From the IMG/VR virus record IMGVR_UViG_3300028559_000135, positions 1-31,542 of that record: 31,542 nt of DNA. The stretch is one strand, 5' to 3'. Origin of the DNA: a virus. This document shows, one piece after another, positions 14,387 through 20,890 of this stretch. The notes under the pieces were generated by a model that saw nothing but the letters and a program-made list of their open reading frames with translations, had not been told where the DNA came from and ran no database searches. The position numbers and the translations under genes were made by a program. Position 1 is the first letter of the stretch, and each line of letters begins with the position of its first letter.

Positions 14387-14758
14387 TCATTTCGCCACCC
14401 GCCGCGCGTCCGCCGCCCGCGCCGCGAACTCCTCGGGCCACAGCCGCAGCGCCAGGTCGAGCGCGACCCCGGTCGGGCAGGAAAACCCGTCGAGCCAGTT
14501 GCGCGCGGTCTGTTCGGTGCAGCCGAACACCGCGACGATGCCCCGCACCGCCCCGCAGCGCCGCATCAGCAGCCCCGACCACCAGACCAGCAACCCCGCG
14601 CGATCCGGCTCGACCGGGGCCAGCCGCAGGGGCCGCAGCGGCACCGCCCGCCCCCGGCCCCCGGCAGGGGCGCGCGGCGCAAACACCTTTGGGTGGGACA
14701 TTTGCCCCGGCGGCAGGCCAGACACGGCGCGCAAGGGGGAAAGGATTCGAGATGACAT
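14387..14758 (-). CDS. Small HTH-containing phage protein
   Basis: The protein is 123 residues from ATG 14758, overlapping the Cro-like stop by one base (TGATG). The N-terminal half is rich in Pro, Arg and Leu. The C-terminal half (IVAVFGCTEQTARNWLDGFS) has a helix-turn-helix pattern in which 'CTEQTARNW' would be turn plus recognition helix. DLALRLWPEEFAARAADARR follows. It is probably a small DNA-binding protein of the early operon. I know no named family for it. Confidence 0.6.
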   Translation of the reverse strand: MSSRILSPLRAVSGLPPGQMSHPKVFAPRAPAGGRGRAVPLRPLRLAPVEPDRAGLLVWWSGLLMRRCGAVRGIVAVFGCTEQTARNWLDGFSCPTGVALDLALRLWPEEFAARAADARRVAK

Positions 14759-14979
14759 CACGCGGCATCCTCGGTTGGGGGGAGGGGTTCCGGGAAGAAA
14801 TCGAGCCGCGTCAGGCTCATACCGTCCGCTTCGGCGGCGGCCAACACGGCGATCTTCTGGTCGTCAGGGATTGTCCCACGGTCCTTCCAGCCTCCGATTG
14901 TCGAGGAGGGCTTCTGCAGCCGTCGCGCCATCGGGCGGACGCCCCCGAAAGCTTCGACGATGCGATCAACGTAGGACAT
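14758..14979 (-). CDS. Cro-like repressor
   Basis: The protein is 73 residues starting MSYVDRIVEAFGGVRPMARR. Residues 5-40 form a Cro-type helix-turn-helix (FGGVRPMARRLQKPSSTIGG, then WKDRGTIPDD). This arrangement is known from Cro-like proteins of alphaproteobacterial phages (the carph-isopro pattern). It is the first gene of the leftward operon and is transcribed divergently from the CI-like gene across OR. It should repress the CI promoter and commit the phage to lytic growth. The start is ATG 14979. Confidence 0.8.
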   Translation of the reverse strand: MSYVDRIVEAFGGVRPMARRLQKPSSTIGGWKDRGTIPDDQKIAVLAAAEADGMSLTRLDFFPEPLPPTEDAA

Positions 14980-15002: not shown

Positions 15003-15061
15003 TGTCCGCATTTGTGCGCTAAATGCGGACATATTTCAAGCGCAATCTGCGGACATACTTC
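15003..15061 (+). promoter_or_regulatory. OR: operator between the Cro-like and CI-like genes
   Basis: The octamer TGCGGACA occurs three times here: inverted at 15003, and direct at 15024 and 15048 (24 bases apart). The first two form a perfect inverted repeat TGTCCGCATTT-N7-AAATGCGGACA (15003-15031). Positions 15014-15055 recur inverted at 16480-16439 with 38 of 42 bases identical. On the minus strand TTGAAA is followed 17-18 bases later by CACAAAT, a weak promoter candidate for the Cro-like gene. The CI-like promoter must point the other way. Three repeats against two in OL recalls lambda operators. Confidence 0.8.
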
Positions 15062-15088
15062 TAGGGCCGACTTCGCTAGCAAGCTGCC

Positions 15089-15751
15089 ATGTCTGAAGCC
15101 AGCAACGTCCCTCAGCGCCTCAAAGATTTGCGAACGCGCGCCAAGCTCTCGGTTCGGGAAATGGCACGGCGTGTCGGAATGTCGTCTTCGGGCTATTCGC
15201 ATTACGAAACACCGGCGCGGTTCAAGGAAGCCTTCCTTCCGATGTCAGTCGCGCTCGACTTTGCAAAGGCAATGGGGGGCACCGGCGTTGAGGCGTCCGA
15301 AGTTCTAGCCCTCGCCGGGGCCGCTCCGGGCACGGCGAACGCAATTCCCGCGCCGACGGGGTTTTCCGAAGCGGCCACTCCCTACGAGTTTCGCGAACAT
15401 CCGACCAATCCCGAGGATCCGCAGCGGGGATTGCGGGCGATCTTCGGCAAGACGGCGACGACGCCAGCCAGCTTCGTGCTGCAGGCGAACTACCCGGCCT
15501 TCAGCCTGCTGCGGGGCGATGTCCTTATCTGCGATCTCGCACGCCTGCCGCTGCCCGGAGAGTTGGCGCTGGTGACAATCGTCAACGACCACAATGCCAG
15601 CAGCGCGACTTCGGTCCGGCGATTCTGGCCGCCTTTCCTTGGCAGTGGCGATCTGCCCGGTGACGACCAGTTGCGGATCGATCAAGCGGGTGTGACGGTG
15701 AGGTGTTCCGTGATCGGGTTGATTCGCGGGTTGGCAGACGCGGGGAAGTAG
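15089..15751 (+). CDS. CI-like phage repressor with degenerate S24 domain
   Basis: The protein has 220 residues. Residues 8-45 are an XRE-type helix-turn-helix (RLKDLRTRAKLSVREMARRV, then GMSSSGYSHYE). A linker leads to a C-terminal domain with the S24/LexA-like strand pattern (SFVLQANYPAFSLLRGDVLI, PGELALVTIVND). In autocleaving repressors a Ser lies eight residues before the conserved GD, and a Lys follows in the next strands. Here the first is Tyr/Pro (YPAFSLLRGD) and the second region reads TSVRRFW. The domain may therefore dimerise without RecA-induced cleavage. No SD sequence is clear before ATG 15089. It starts the CI-membrane-secreted gene set. Confidence 0.82.
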   Translation: MSEASNVPQRLKDLRTRAKLSVREMARRVGMSSSGYSHYETPARFKEAFLPMSVALDFAKAMGGTGVEASEVLALAGAAPGTANAIPAPTGFSEAATPYEFREHPTNPEDPQRGLRAIFGKTATTPASFVLQANYPAFSLLRGDVLICDLARLPLPGELALVTIVNDHNASSATSVRRFWPPFLGSGDLPGDDQLRIDQAGVTVRCSVIGLIRGLADAGK

Positions 15752-15753
15752 GC

Positions 15754-16056
15754 ATGGGAACGACCAAAACGGTGAGAATCGAGAAACGCCAGCGCGGTGT
15801 GGTGGGTTGGGTGTTCCTGATCCTCTTCTGGGCCTTCAATGCCCTGATGGCCTTCGGGCTTTTCGCGGGTCTGGATAGTGCCACTAAAACCGCCGCTGGT
15901 TTAACCAGCGAAGCCGAACAGGCGGGGGCCGCGATTGGCACGGCCATTGGCGCAAGCATGATCGTGTCGATCTGGATGGCAGGCGCGGTCATCTTGGGCA
16001 TCTTCGTGATGCTGACACGCGGCAAGAAGATCATCGTCGAAACGACCGAGGGTTGA
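15754..16056 (+). CDS. Two-TM membrane protein in the 'rexA' position
   Basis: The protein is 100 residues from ATG 15754, two bases after the CI-like stop, with GGGGAA as SD. It has a basic N-terminus (TKTVRIEKRQRG), a first membrane span (VVGWVFLILFWAFNALMAFG), a small loop, a second span (ASMIVSIWMAGAVILGIFVM) and a basic end (TRGKK). It looks like an inner-membrane protein with both ends inside. Similar small proteins are, as I recall, common in Rhodobacteraceae chromosomes. Being co-transcribed with the repressor, it should be made in lysogens. Superinfection exclusion is an attractive but untested role. Confidence 0.75.
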   Translation: MGTTKTVRIEKRQRGVVGWVFLILFWAFNALMAFGLFAGLDSATKTAAGLTSEAEQAGAAIGTAIGASMIVSIWMAGAVILGIFVMLTRGKKIIVETTEG

Positions 16057-16058
16057 CC

Positions 16059-16376
16059 ATGAACCGGAATCTTCTTGCCTTGGGTTTTTGCCTTGCCGTC
16101 CACCCCGCAGCCGCGCAGATGGAGTCGATGGAACTCGCCGTAGAGTTGGGCACGGTTCTGGGCAGCGAACGCATCTGCGACCTGAAATATGACCAGGGCG
16201 CGATCCAGACATGGATCGAAGCGAATGCGCCTGCCGACGATATGGGTTTTGCCTCGACGCTGTCGATGATGTCGCAGGGGATCGAGATGCAGAATGCGAA
16301 CCTGTCTCCATCTAGGAAGACCGCACACTGCGCGGCGGTGACCAAGACCGCGCGGCACTTTGGTTTCATCAAGTAA
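16059..16376 (+). CDS. Secreted small protein in the 'rexB' position
   Basis: The protein is 105 residues from ATG 16059 with GAGGG ahead. A signal peptide is clear (MNRNLLALGFCLAVHPAAAQ, cut after AAA-Q or nearby). The mature part has two Cys (RICDLKY and AHCAAV) that could pair in the periplasm, and ends ARHFGFIK. It resembles a Rhodobacteraceae family of short periplasmic proteins sometimes mislabelled 'signal recognition particle'. It is the last gene before OL, so it is likely expressed from the lysogen. Function is unknown; a lysogenic conversion or exclusion factor is inferred from place. Confidence 0.72.
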   Translation: MNRNLLALGFCLAVHPAAAQMESMELAVELGTVLGSERICDLKYDQGAIQTWIEANAPADDMGFASTLSMMSQGIEMQNANLSPSRKTAHCAAVTKTARHFGFIK

Positions 16377-16425
16377 AATAGAGGTTTTCGAATCAACTTG
16401 CCCGGCCTAACAGCCCGGCTGAATT

Positions 16426-16484
16426 TTGACGCTCGCTTTGTCCGCAAATTGCGCTTGCAAAGTGTCCGCATTTAGCGCACGATC
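16426..16484 (+). promoter_or_regulatory. OL: inverted second copy of the operator, before the rightward operon
   Basis: TGTCCGCA-type sites lie at 16439 and 16463 on the plus strand, again 24 bases apart. The 42-base segment 16439-16480 matches OR (15014-15055) in inverted orientation at 38 positions. The segments GTGCGCTAAATGCGGACA, AAGCGCAAT and TGCGGACA are unchanged, so the same repressor should bind both. TTGCAA (16455-16460) and CACGAT (16478-16483), 17 bases apart, are a weak promoter candidate placed within the operator. TTGACG (16426-16431) is an alternative -35 box. It would control the rightward early operon. Confidence 0.78.
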
Positions 16485-16517
16485 AGCCCCATCGCAACCC
16501 GCCGATGGAGAGCCCCG

Positions 16518-16808
16518 ATGCATACCCCCGCCGTCCCCCGCCCACCGACCGCGCGCCAGATCGATGACGCGCTGGCGGTGGTCCACTCGCCCGCCCTGGT
16601 GCACGACCAGCCCGCGATGCGCGCCACCGCCTGGCTGACGCTGAAACGGCTTCGCGGCCAGTCGGTCAACCTCGACCGGATCGGGGCCCTGCAGGACGGG
16701 TTGCGCCGCGCCCATCTGGCGGTGGTGCGCGAGGTGGCCTGCCGCCAGGTCGCCGCCCGGCTCGCCCCGGCGTTTCACGATGACGTCGACTGCGGCGGTG
16801 CGGCATGA
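16518..16808 (+). CDS. Small unknown early protein
   Basis: The protein is 96 residues from ATG 16518 with GGAGAG ahead, the first gene of the rightward early operon. It is mainly helical (RQIDDALAVVHSPALVHDQP, GALQDGLRRAHLAVVREVAC). This is the place of lambda N and neighbouring early genes, but no Arg-rich N-like motif is evident. The stop overlaps the next start (ATGA). No family is recognised. Confidence 0.6.
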   Translation: MHTPAVPRPPTARQIDDALAVVHSPALVHDQPAMRATAWLTLKRLRGQSVNLDRIGALQDGLRRAHLAVVREVACRQVAARLAPAFHDDVDCGGAA

Positions 16809-17439: not shown

Positions 17440-17741
17440 GCGCCTCGATGATGCAGGCCGTCGGGCCAGACCTGTGCGCCCTCGAGATTGCCGACGACCT
17501 GCGGGTGCAGCAGGCCTGCATCGCGCTGCGCGACCTGATCGCAGACCTTGCCGCCGCCCGAGGGGGCGAGGTGCCGACGCTGGCCGTCACCTTTCTGATG
17601 ACGTCGGCGCATGACTGTGAGGCCGCCTGGCTTGTGTTCGGCGATCCAGATCAGGACATCCTTGACGAGCTGGCCGACGCGCTGCGCGATCCCGACAACG
17701 ATGACGTCCGGGCGCTGCCAAAGCGGCAAAGGGACCACTGA
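17436..17741 (+). CDS. Small acidic unknown early protein
   Basis: The protein is 101 residues from ATG 17436 (ATGA overlap). It contains DDLRVQQACIALRDLIADLA, a hydrophobic strand (VPTLAVTFLMTSAHDCEAAW) and an acidic tail (DPDQDILDELADALRDPDND) ending in KRQRDH. A dominant acidic surface is common in phage inhibitors of host nucleic-acid-binding proteins, but no specific function is visible. Confidence 0.55.
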   Translation: MSASMMQAVGPDLCALEIADDLRVQQACIALRDLIADLAAARGGEVPTLAVTFLMTSAHDCEAAWLVFGDPDQDILDELADALRDPDNDDVRALPKRQRDH

Positions 17742-17794
17742 TGCGCGCCGCCTTCTGGCTGGTCTGCCGCAGCCCCGCCGCGGGGCGGCGATGA
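17741..17794 (+). CDS. 17-residue coupled mini-ORF before the methyltransferase
   Basis: MRAAFWLVCRSPAAGRR starts at ATG 17741, sharing one base with the upstream stop (TGATG). It ends with TGA one base before the methyltransferase ATG. It could simply keep ribosomes running into the methyltransferase start. Reality as a protein is doubtful. Confidence 0.25.
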   Translation: MRAAFWLVCRSPAAGRR

Positions 17795-19278
17795 CATGGT
17801 GCTACGTCCCGGAAACGGATTGTCCCTCTGCTCGGGCGGCGGAGGCTTGTGTATGGGCCTCGGTCTTGCCGAGCCGGGCTTTCACACCCGATGCTTTGTC
17901 GAATGGGAAGCCTATCCCCGATCTGTCCTCATCGCCGCACAGCGTGCCGGAACCCTCGCCCCCGCCCCGATCTGGGATGATGTCACCACCTTTGACGGAC
18001 GGCCCCTGCGCGGCGCAATCGACACCGTGCTTGCCGGATACCCCTGCCAGCCGTTCAGCATGGCAGGGCAGCGCAAGGGGGCAGACGACGAGCGGCACCT
18101 GTGGCCCGACGTTGCCCGCATCATCCGGCAGGTCGAACCTGAATGGGTCTTTCTCGAAAACGTCCCCGGTCACGTCACCCTTGGCCTTGAAACCGTGCTG
18201 CGAGAGTTATGGGACATGGGTTGGACGCCTGCGGTTGGCCTATTCTCGGCGTCTGAAGTCGGCGCATCGCACGAACGGCTCAGGCTGTTCATTGTGGCCC
18301 ACCGCAGTCGCTCAGGACGACAACAAGACGCTGGAGGGCCACTTGGCGATGAAGCGCCGAATGGGCGAGAGGGACGGCAGCGGCGCGCACCGAACAGCGG
18401 TGACGAGCCTGCAAGTCTTGGCGCAAAGCTGGCCAACCCCCATGGCGGGCACCCCGGCGCAGAACGGGAACAGCGCGGCGGGAAACTCGGATTTCAGCCG
18501 GAAGGCCGAGGCGCTGGCGGCGGGGCTTTGGACCACACCCCAGGCCCACGATGTGCGGATGCGCGGATCGGGCCAGACCAGCGGGGCGACCGGATCGAAC
18601 GCGGGCAACCGCTGTCTGGCGACGGATGCCGCCCAATGGCAGACGCCGGTAGCGGACGACGCGGCGGATCGGGCGGTGGGCAAGATCAACAGCCGGGGCG
18701 AACCGAAACTGTCGGGGCAGGCGCATCTGTGGGGAACGCCCCGGGCGTCGGACGCGGAAAAGGGCGGGCCGAACCAGTCGTTCGGGGCGGGGGGCACGCC
18801 CCTGCCGTCACAGGCGGCGCAGTGGCCGACGCCAGCAGCGCGGGATCACAAGGGGGGATCGGAGGCCAGCGTCACACGGGTGAATGGCAAATCCCGGCTG
18901 GACCTTCTGGATCATCGCGCCGAACAGGGCTTTTCCCACCCGGCCCATCTGACGCCGCCACTTGGGCCGACGCTCTCGCAACTGCGCCCGATCTGGCGCC
19001 CGCTGCGGGCCTTGCTGATTGCCTCGCATGGGCGGGACGTCTGGCGCAGGCTCTGGAAGGGCCGGACCAAGCGGCGGCTGAACCCCGTCTTCGAAGAATG
19101 GCTGATGGGCTGGCCACCCGGCCACGCGCTGTGCGCCTGCTCGGCAACGGAGTGGTTCCACTGGCAGCAGCGCATGCGTGGCGCACTCTCGCGGCTGCCC
19201 ACGGCCTCGGGCCCGTGGATCTGGAAGCCGCCTGCCGTGATGACACCGGCCCTGCAGGGGAGTTTGTTTGATGCTTGA
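17791..19278 (+). CDS. Overlapping +1-frame ORF of the WxTP-repeat family
   Basis: The frame shifted by one from the cytosine methyltransferase is open through the whole gene and reads as a recognisable phage protein type. It has a Ser-rich front (TLPASSGRSNLNGSFSKTSP, then GSGCSLWPTAV). Five repeats of the form W-x-T-P-x-A-x-D follow: SWPTPMAGTP, LWTTPQAHD, QWQTPVADD, LWGTPRASD, QWPTPAARD. It ends with LNPVFEEWLMGWPPGH and TEWFHWQQRMRGALSRL. Proteins with this plan are found near methyltransferases in other phages, to my recollection. ATG 17791 is one possible start. GC-rich DNA keeps spare frames open, so translation is unproven. Confidence 0.5.
   Translation: MTWCYVPETDCPSARAAEACVWASVLPSRAFTPDALSNGKPIPDLSSSPHSVPEPSPPPRSGMMSPPLTDGPCAAQSTPCLPDTPASRSAWQGSARGQTTSGTCGPTLPASSGRSNLNGSFSKTSPVTSPLALKPCCESYGTWVGRLRLAYSRRLKSAHRTNGSGCSLWPTAVAQDDNKTLEGHLAMKRRMGERDGSGAHRTAVTSLQVLAQSWPTPMAGTPAQNGNSAAGNSDFSRKAEALAAGLWTTPQAHDVRMRGSGQTSGATGSNAGNRCLATDAAQWQTPVADDAADRAVGKINSRGEPKLSGQAHLWGTPRASDAEKGGPNQSFGAGGTPLPSQAAQWPTPAARDHKGGSEASVTRVNGKSRLDLLDHRAEQGFSHPAHLTPPLGPTLSQLRPIWRPLRALLIASHGRDVWRRLWKGRTKRRLNPVFEEWLMGWPPGHALCACSATEWFHWQQRMRGALSRLPTASGPWIWKPPAVMTPALQGSLFDA
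17796..19271 (+). CDS. dcm: DNA (cytosine-5) methyltransferase
   Basis: The protein has 491 residues and all key C5-methyltransferase motifs are in this frame. Motif I is LSLCSGGGGLCMGLGLAEPG (AdoMet site), and motif IV is GYPCQPFSMAGQRKG with catalytic Cys84. Motif VI is FLENVPG (120-125), and motif VIII is near SHERLRLFIVAH (159-169). Motifs IX/X are in RAVRLLGNGVVPLAAAHAW. The target-recognition region between VIII and IX is long, Gly-rich and repetitive (LANPHGGHPGA, MADAGSGRRGG, VADASSAGSQGG). A second reading frame fully overlaps the gene. It probably protects phage DNA from host restriction. Start ATG 17796 follows a coupled mini-ORF. Confidence 0.88.
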   Translation: MVLRPGNGLSLCSGGGGLCMGLGLAEPGFHTRCFVEWEAYPRSVLIAAQRAGTLAPAPIWDDVTTFDGRPLRGAIDTVLAGYPCQPFSMAGQRKGADDERHLWPDVARIIRQVEPEWVFLENVPGHVTLGLETVLRELWDMGWTPAVGLFSASEVGASHERLRLFIVAHRSRSGRQQDAGGPLGDEAPNGREGRQRRAPNSGDEPASLGAKLANPHGGHPGAEREQRGGKLGFQPEGRGAGGGALDHTPGPRCADARIGPDQRGDRIERGQPLSGDGCRPMADAGSGRRGGSGGGQDQQPGRTETVGAGASVGNAPGVGRGKGRAEPVVRGGGHAPAVTGGAVADASSAGSQGGIGGQRHTGEWQIPAGPSGSSRRTGLFPPGPSDAATWADALATAPDLAPAAGLADCLAWAGRLAQALEGPDQAAAEPRLRRMADGLATRPRAVRLLGNGVVPLAAAHAWRTLAAAHGLGPVDLEAACRDDTGPAGEFV

Positions 19279-20890
19279 TCTGATCTGCCTCTTCGCCCTC
19301 TGCCTGACCGGCGCGGTGGCCGTCGACGGCGACACCCTGAAACTGGACGGCCAGCGCTATCGCCTCTGGGGCATCGACGCGCCCGAGGTGGGCGAGCCGG
19401 GTGCGGCACAGGCCAGGGCGGCGCTGGCCGACCTGATCGAGGGGCAGCGGCTGGTCTGCGACCACCTCGACACCGACCGCTACGCCCGCCCGGTGATCCG
19501 CTGCACCCTGCCCTGGGGCGCGGACCCGGCCTGCGAGCTGGGGTCCAAGGACGCGGCGATCCACATGCAAGGCATCTGGATCGTGGAAATCGCTGAACTT
19601 GACGCTATCGGCCGTGCCGAGGTGTCGCGCATCAAGGCATTCCTGACCCGAACTACTGATCGCTTCCGGCCGCCCTATGGCCGCTATACCGTCGAGGTGC
19701 CGCGCCAATGCGTCTTCGCTGGCACGGTCAACCCCGACACCTATCTGCGCGACGAGACCGGCAACCGCCGCTTCTGGCCGCTCCGCTGCGGCACCATCGA
19801 CATCGCGGCTCTGGCCCGCGACCGCGACCAGCTCTGGGCCGAGGCTGTCCATCGTTTCCGCGAAGGCGCGATCTGGTGGATCGACGATGCGGATCTGCTG
19901 GCAGAGGCCCGAACCGAACAAGAATCCCGGTATCAGGGTGACGCATGGGACGCGCGCATCGACAGATGGCTCACCCACGACACGCGCAGCGTCAATCGCG
20001 GCCACGCGGGGTATGAGGATTGGCAGGAAGAAGAGATCGAGCGGGTCGATCCGATCCGCGACCTCTTTGATGGCGGCCCGGATGGCGGCGGCGAGAACGA
20101 CAACACGGCCATGATGTTCTTCCTGAAGGACCGGGTCGAGGTTCTGCGCGAAGCGGTCAATCCGGACGCCGGTGTCATCCTCGCCCACCACACCCGCAAG
20201 GCGGCCAAGCATCAGGTCAAGGACGATCCCTTCCTCTCCCTCTCCGGCGCCAGTGCGCTGCGTGGCTTTTACACCTCCGGTCTTCTCATGCACCGGCCCG
20301 ACGAGGACAGCACCCAGCGTCGCCTGGAAATCGAGTTGCGCAACGGCCCCGCGCTGCCCGGCAAGCTGATCGACAAGGTCGCGGGTCGCTGGGTCGAACT
20401 GAACCCGATGAATGAGCGGCTGGTGCGCAAGGAGGTCGGGGCCAAGTTCGACGCAGAACGGCTGCGCAAGCATGATGTCATCCTCGGCATGTTGCTCGAT
20501 GAGGCGGCGGGCGAGCGGCTCTACACCGCCATGCAATTCGCCGAGACCTTCGAAAATCGCGGCGGTCTGGGCAGCAAGCACACCATCCGCGAACGCCTCT
20601 CTGTGCTCGCCACCAAGGGCTTCGTGAAGTTCCTTCGCGACCCTTCGGGCTTAGGCTACCCCGTCACCCGGTCCCGGTTCGGCTATCTCTGCGTGGAAGG
20701 CATGCAGTTCGGTTTACCGGTCGAGGAGGTCGATCCGACCACTGGCGAAGTCACCACGGAGGTCCGTCCGGTCCTGCCCAGCCACTTCAAATGCCCGCAG
20801 TCCGGGCTCAGCCTTCAGGTCGAAAATCCGGCTGTCTGGGTCTACCAGGACGGGTCCGAGGACGACCTAACTCATATGAGTGAGGCCTGA
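19271..20890 (+). CDS. Mosaic ORF: nuclease + VapE fragment + RepA-type ATPase fragment
   Basis: This 539-residue frame joins three partial proteins. Residues 1-90 are a secreted thermonuclease start (hydrophobic leader, VDGDTLKLDGQRYRLWGIDAPE-type core, cut off after PACEL). Residues 91-260 match the C-terminal part of phage VapE primase-helicases (VWIVEIAEL-type acidic strand, RTTDRFRPPYGR, VNPDTYLRDETGNRRFWPL). Residues 260-520 match the C-terminal part of RepA/AAA_25 helicases (GENDNTAMMFFLKDRVEVLR, GVILAHHTRKAAK). Neither ATPase keeps its Walker A. It is probably non-functional debris of recombination, or a contig chimera. ATG 19271 overlaps the methyltransferase stop by one base. Confidence 0.6.
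   Translation: MLDLICLFALCLTGAVAVDGDTLKLDGQRYRLWGIDAPEVGEPGAAQARAALADLIEGQRLVCDHLDTDRYARPVIRCTLPWGADPACELGSKDAAIHMQGIWIVEIAELDAIGRAEVSRIKAFLTRTTDRFRPPYGRYTVEVPRQCVFAGTVNPDTYLRDETGNRRFWPLRCGTIDIAALARDRDQLWAEAVHRFREGAIWWIDDADLLAEARTEQESRYQGDAWDARIDRWLTHDTRSVNRGHAGYEDWQEEEIERVDPIRDLFDGGPDGGGENDNTAMMFFLKDRVEVLREAVNPDAGVILAHHTRKAAKHQVKDDPFLSLSGASALRGFYTSGLLMHRPDEDSTQRRLEIELRNGPALPGKLIDKVAGRWVELNPMNERLVRKEVGAKFDAERLRKHDVILGMLLDEAAGERLYTAMQFAETFENRGGLGSKHTIRERLSVLATKGFVKFLRDPSGLGYPVTRSRFGYLCVEGMQFGLPVEEVDPTTGEVTTEVRPVLPSHFKCPQSGLSLQVENPAVWVYQDGSEDDLTHMSEA

Follow-up and report, generated by a model that had tools for sequence, protein, structure and literature searches.

Two elements that form an inverted repeat lie on either side of a repressor-like gene in the window, the 31,542 bases of a virus record that we analysed as a whole. 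Both sit on predicted early promoters, both are conserved in related phages, and their letters are matched to one another. We read this arrangement as the lambda-type immunity region of a temperate phage of Rhodobacterales-type bacteria, with paired operators placed around the repressor gene, and judging from the sequence we put the probability of this reading at roughly 0.87. A CI-like protein, and probably a Cro-like protein too, would bind 19-bp dyads of the form TGTNCGCA-N3-TGCGNACA, and pairs of these dyads 24 bp apart would cover the -35 and -10 hexamers of two promoters, PR, which would drive cro and the replication and terminase genes to the left, and PL, which would drive DNA-metabolism genes to the right. 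We infer that the binder is the product of 15089-15751 and that it represses; one such repressor at both elements would shut both early operons in the lysogen, and the genes left on would be those between the elements, namely the CI-like gene and two cargo genes.

14758-14979, minus strand: Cro-like protein, 73 aa, HTH, carph-isopro family (NCBIfam NF046037, E 1e-17, above cut-off)
15089-15751, plus strand: CI-like repressor, 220 aa, N-terminal HTH (HTH_31, E 1e-8)
15754-16056, plus strand: cargo gene 1, small membrane protein (phrog_6586; weak DUF4064)
16059-16376, plus strand: cargo gene 2, signal-like N-terminus (phrog_27886)

Leftward of OR, the element between the divergent CI-like and Cro-like genes, lie the Cro-like gene, replication-like genes, a terminase (GpA), a lambda-family portal and a ClpP-capsid fusion. 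Rightward of it come the CI-like HTH protein and two small proteins, one a membrane protein and the other with a signal-like N-terminus, followed by the second element, OL, past which the rightward operon includes, among others, genes for a cytosine methylase and a protein of the VapE/primase type. The inverted repeat described in the earlier note was recovered by a repeat search as the longest of the region, with arms at 15014-15055 and 16439-16480 (42 nt, 38/42, 90% complementary), and a repeat this good is expected by chance about 8e-9 times in the window given its composition. There are exactly five copies of the octamer TGCGGACA/TGTCCGCA in the 31.5-kb window, every one inside the two elements, and a search of the window for paired octamers found one place per element and none for the reversed control.

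15003 (minus), 15024 (plus), 15048 (plus), 16439 (minus), 16463 (minus): copies of TGCGGACA, exact-match search on both strands

The site spacing of 24 bases that had been noted before is confirmed as a 24-bp direct repeat at 15016/15040. The 11-base inverted repeat that a third, inverted OR site had been noted to form is present as TGTCCGCATTT/AAATGCGGACA at 15003-15013/15021-15031, but one arm is a half of dyad B and the other a half of dyad C, which overlap, and the repeat is not one operator.

The functional unit that emerges from aligned elements of the window and its relatives is CGCA-N3-TGCG, placed inside the 19-bp dyad. Dyad offsets are fixed in the alignment, with A at +4, B at +28/29 and, in the OR of many relatives, C at +37/38, where it overlaps B. 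Dyads occur at 19.5 per kb in the elements versus 1.5 per kb in the overall background.

15003-15022, plus strand: OR site C, TGTCCGCA-N4-TGCGCTAA, an exact half-site overlapping site B; the third half-site of the earlier note
15013-15031, minus strand: OR dyad B, TGTCCGCA-TTT-AGCGCACA, reaching the -10 of the cro promoter
15037-15055, minus strand: OR dyad A, TGTCCGCA-GAT-TGCGCTTG, overlapping the -35 of the cro promoter
15011-15039, minus strand: predicted PR (cro) promoter, TTGAAA - 17 - CACAAA, inferred from aligned relatives
16439-16457, plus strand: OL dyad A, TGTCCGCA-AAT-TGCGCTTG, overlapping the -35 of PL
16463-16481, plus strand: OL dyad B, TGTCCGCA-TTT-AGCGCACG, overlapping the -10 of PL
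16455-16483, plus strand: predicted PL promoter, TTGCAA - 17 - CACGAT, inferred from 14 aligned OL elements

Site C has a spacer of four bases in the window versus N3 in the relatives, and OL holds two dyads, while OR holds two and the overlapping third. In the aligned elements, each predicted early promoter has dyads A and B over its -35 and -10, at a spacing of 24-25 bp, with A overlapping a TTGACN-like -35 and B running into the -10; the two dyads of such a pair may be filled cooperatively. The PR hexamers are conserved in the aligned relatives, and the -10 is weak in the window. Both window -10 boxes are poor by comparison with the E. coli consensus, and a generic promoter scan of the window missed PR and PL alike. 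In most relatives the ATG of cro stands at base seven beyond the predicted -10, which predicts a leaderless cro there; in the window the ATG lies 24 bp beyond the element.

To find relatives, we aligned the window Cro with that of Paracoccus phage Psul1, a 'Cro-like protein' of 55% identity, which led to 80 genome loci; a seven-member Cro alignment then led to 26 viral contigs. Homologs of the window's divergent CI-like/Cro-like HTH gene pair are present in relatives, whose adjacent CI genes are 35-54% identical to the window CI in the HTH. With a leave-one-out position matrix, two copies of the element were found in each of the seven relatives with an adjacent CI, one in the gap between CI and Cro and the other, inverted, beyond CI. 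The second copies scored 11-26, and five of the seven exceeded all shuffle maxima; L129 (13.0 versus a shuffle maximum of 12.0) and L133 (11.3 versus 10.8) are marginal under this short matrix. A sequence model built from 16 elements, R1, scores these two at E 2e-11 and 4e-10, both being members of the model. The R1 search yielded 14 distinct phages or prophages with a readable locus, the window included, each with one OR and one inverted OL beyond CI; six of the 14 (L212, L213, L216, L217, L218 and L225) are outside the model and thus independent of it. The 13 relatives that share the layout come from phages, prophages and metagenomes. Run over the genomes of six relatives, Psul1 and a 1.7-Mb Paracoccus plasmid, R1 gave the OR/OL pair as the only strong matches.

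The letters of the dyads are specific to each phage: TGTCCGCA in the window and, in OR and OL alike, TGATCGCA in Psul1, TGGGCGCA in the P. denitrificans plasmid and TGTTCGCA in Rubellimicrobium. OR and OL of the same phage share 298 7-mers versus a permuted mean of 191 (p 5e-5, a statistic that ignores the relatedness of L127 and L216). Such matching is as expected if one regulator per phage reads both elements, be it CI, Cro or both. The earlier proposal of an OR between the CI-like and Cro-like genes and an OL at the rightward early operon is thus supported, with corrections: the element stands at both places in 14 of 14 phages, OR and OL letters co-vary, the dyads overlap predicted promoters and the gene content fits. 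The refuting case that the note had named, absence of the element from both positions in relatives, was therefore not what we observed.

An inverted pair of near-identical 42-bp arms that brackets three genes could also mark the ends of a mobile or invertible segment carrying the repressor gene, be it a transposon or a site-specific inversion cassette, and what lies between the copies does vary by phage. However, between phages the copies share the dyad and -35 positions only and not the whole repeat, their orientation relative to both early operons does not change in any of the 14 phages, the end of OR is in every case at the cro start or close to it, with OL just upstream of the gene that follows, and none of the adjoining genes was recognised as a recombinase. 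We therefore regard a mobile segment as highly improbable, and continue with the operator reading.

Beyond these 14 loci, R1 matched neither the more distant, Rhodospirillaceae-type Cro loci nor L215, which has 56% Cro identity and a related CI and whose intergenic sequence is a diverged look-alike; viral contigs scanned directly with the CI protein gave no match. Over 395 genomes, with 14 candidates scored per genome, R1 matched the starting genome alone, a result that says nothing on absence. Pairs of TGCGGACA, sought in viral contigs, gave at least 120 matches, mostly unrelated and with no CI or Cro relative among them, so octamer pairs alone are not diagnostic, and by a rough estimate their number is at or below chance for a 16-base pattern. 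In unrelated viral contigs, TGCGGACA also occurs in tandem, at 11-bp steps in L020, L024, L034, L104 and L107 (TTTTGCGGACATTTTGCGGACA...) and at 22-bp steps in L013, L016, L022 and L062; this tandem arrangement may be the operator of another regulator.

The Cro-like protein scores 64 bits against NF046037 (cut-off 38), and its match to Phage_CI_repr is weak and below the cut-off. In the window CI we found no Peptidase_S24 match, and its C-terminal half has no match to any family; Peptidase_S24 was matched in four of the four CIs of relatives that were scanned, and an S24-type C-terminus could be aligned in eight relatives, with an invariant G-x-S-M-x-P-T motif and V-K-R. Comparison of the window CI profile with the S24 CIs aligned mainly the HTH, the C-terminal part being weakly supported; a decayed S24 fold is conceivable there. 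AlphaFold gave the window CI pLDDT values of 34 and 52, with very low confidence in the C-terminal half, and a PDB search by sequence returned no match. Because its CI has no S24 domain, induction of the lambda, RecA-dependent type is not expected in the window phage. Relatives with an S24 domain have the same operator type, so that one can now ask how induction was rewired with DNA recognition unchanged.

It is conceivable that the Cro-like protein is the main reader of the elements and that the CI-like protein acts elsewhere, or on its own promoter only. Cro is more conserved than CI among the relatives, the CI of several relatives is short, and in several relatives a further dyad stands at the CI start, at offset -30/-31. 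Against this, the CI HTH is conserved alongside the element while the remainder of CI varies, and in lambda-type switches CI and Cro read the same operators. We consider Cro as the main reader improbable, and retain CI, probably together with Cro, as the likely regulator of both elements.

How the repressor would act at the two elements is a separate matter. Local repression at each operator, with neither a loop nor long-range cooperation, is compatible with our reading, and we give it even odds. The dyads lie directly on the -35 and -10, so local occlusion would suffice, and the outer OR-OL span varies almost sixfold among the 14 phages, from 607 to 3486 bp. On the other side, lambda loops across a similar distance, about 2.3 kb (PMC5880393). 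A loop between OR and OL is possible on geometrical grounds.

A further feature of the group, one that the earlier note does not mention, is found at PL, where every OL in the 14 phages is followed by a hairpin (z -1.7 to -6.5) with the Shine-Dalgarno sequence in its 3' arm, 8-11 nt before the start codon.

16486-16513, plus strand: leader hairpin pairing the Shine-Dalgarno GGAG of the next gene (fold z -2.7), with the predicted PL start in its 5' arm
16518-16808, plus strand: first gene of the rightward early operon, 96 aa, a protein without known function

Arms from the same phage are more complementary than arms from different phages (-12.9 versus -9.3 kcal/mol, p 5e-5), as in the matched pairs GCCTCCATC/GATGGAGGC of L217 and ACCTCCATC/GATGGAGGT of L218. 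If PL follows the spacing rule by which PR would start on the A of cro, its predicted start is within the 5' arm. Given this predicted start, the Shine-Dalgarno sequence is free in an average of 59% of the PL-started ensemble versus 12% of the read-through ensemble, and 13 of the 14 phages show the expected direction of change in accessibility. Transcription of CI runs toward PL, and the gap between CI and OL is only 4 bp in L217 and L218. A terminator-like hairpin lies upstream of OL in eight of the 14 phages, and none was found before OL in the window. The window's leader hairpin is among the weaker ones and its arm ranks 31 of 153 among upstream segments, which is not unusual; the argument is carried by the family-wide signal. 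A search of Rfam gave no match.

We tentatively propose, at somewhat less than even odds, that PL has a second lock at the RNA level, whereby cI/cargo read-through RNA, as expected in the lysogen, would be untranslatable and PL-started RNA would be translated. By the same tentative model, the hairpin may be an origin sensor of the T4 lysozyme type within a lambda-type switch. In the T4 genes e, soc, 49 and I-TevI, a late promoter lies inside the 5' arm of a hairpin; the ribosome binding site is buried in read-through RNA, and RNA started at the local promoter is without the 5' strand (PMC3014915). The T4 hairpins separate early from late expression in a lytic phage, whereas the PL leader would tell lysogenic read-through from PL transcription, a distinction that is predicted only. 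Such a lock is testable.

The overall plan is that of lambda and is hence not a new kind of system. As in lambda, CI-like and Cro-like genes diverge around OR, a second operator set in inverted relative orientation stands at the other early promoter, cargo genes lie in between (cI-rexAB), dyads 24 bp apart cover promoter elements, and a terminator-like hairpin precedes OL in the eight phages mentioned; in lambda such a hairpin follows rexB. Unlike in lambda, the 19-bp operator has another sequence, OR sites B and C overlap, the Cro-like protein is of the carph-isopro family, cro is predicted to be leaderless in relatives, and PL has a Shine-Dalgarno hairpin with the predicted promoter start inside it. 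The likeness drawn in the earlier note thus holds for the layout but not for the window CI, which is without S24, nor for OL, with two sites instead of three.

The operator sequence of Rhizobium phage 16-3 differs from that of the window. This alphaproteobacterial temperate phage has a studied C repressor and operators (cited in PMC10460002). Paracoccus phage vB_PsuS_Psul1 (MK291443), an active phage (PMC6536676), has a homologous CI HTH (51%) and Cro, an OR between them and an inverted OL 3.5 kb away; unlike the window, it has a shorter CI and different cargo (a SocA-like protein and membrane proteins). The section of its paper on lysogeny names CI and Cro only and does not describe operators (PMC6536676). 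In a literature search that covered few subscription journals, we found no description of the operator, of the carph-isopro Cro with this CI family, of the missing S24 domain or of the PL leader.

The lambda plan of matched operator sets, a repressor and a lysogenic cargo slot is thus kept across a group of phages, most of them of Rhodobacterales, even though the letters of the operators, the C-terminal modules of the repressors and the cargo vary. The 14 operator pairs with their repressors are a resource for work on specificity, and R1 locates immunity regions in poorly annotated prophages. Between OR and OL stands either CI alone, as in L212, L217 and L218, or CI with variable cargo genes that differ by phage and include DUF3800, HSDR_N, a SocA/Panacea protein and membrane proteins. 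The slot has the position of lambda rexAB, which would fit cargo expressed in lysogeny, and defence genes that lysogens express might be sought there. Slot genes stand at L127 4383-5132, L133 4084-5181, L123 4001-4477 and L216 4120-5124 (DUF3800, HSDR_N, SocA/Panacea and an unassigned 334-aa protein).

Some minor observations concern single genes. The cytosine DNA methylase of the rightward operon appears to be split between two overlapping frames (17611-19278 and 17796-19271), one with the N-terminal Pfam match and the other with phrog matches further along, which suggests a frameshift in the gene or else a contig error. A single ORF at 19268-20890 has an N-terminus that by eye resembles a nuclease (GDTLKLDGQRYRLWGIDAPE), together with a VapE-like domain and a C-terminus of the primase/helicase type; it could have arisen by fusion through a deletion or by chimeric assembly. 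A relative of cargo gene 2 (L207 4911-5240) is a single reversed gene in the tail operon of Paracoccus phage Pthi1, a placement as expected of a moron.
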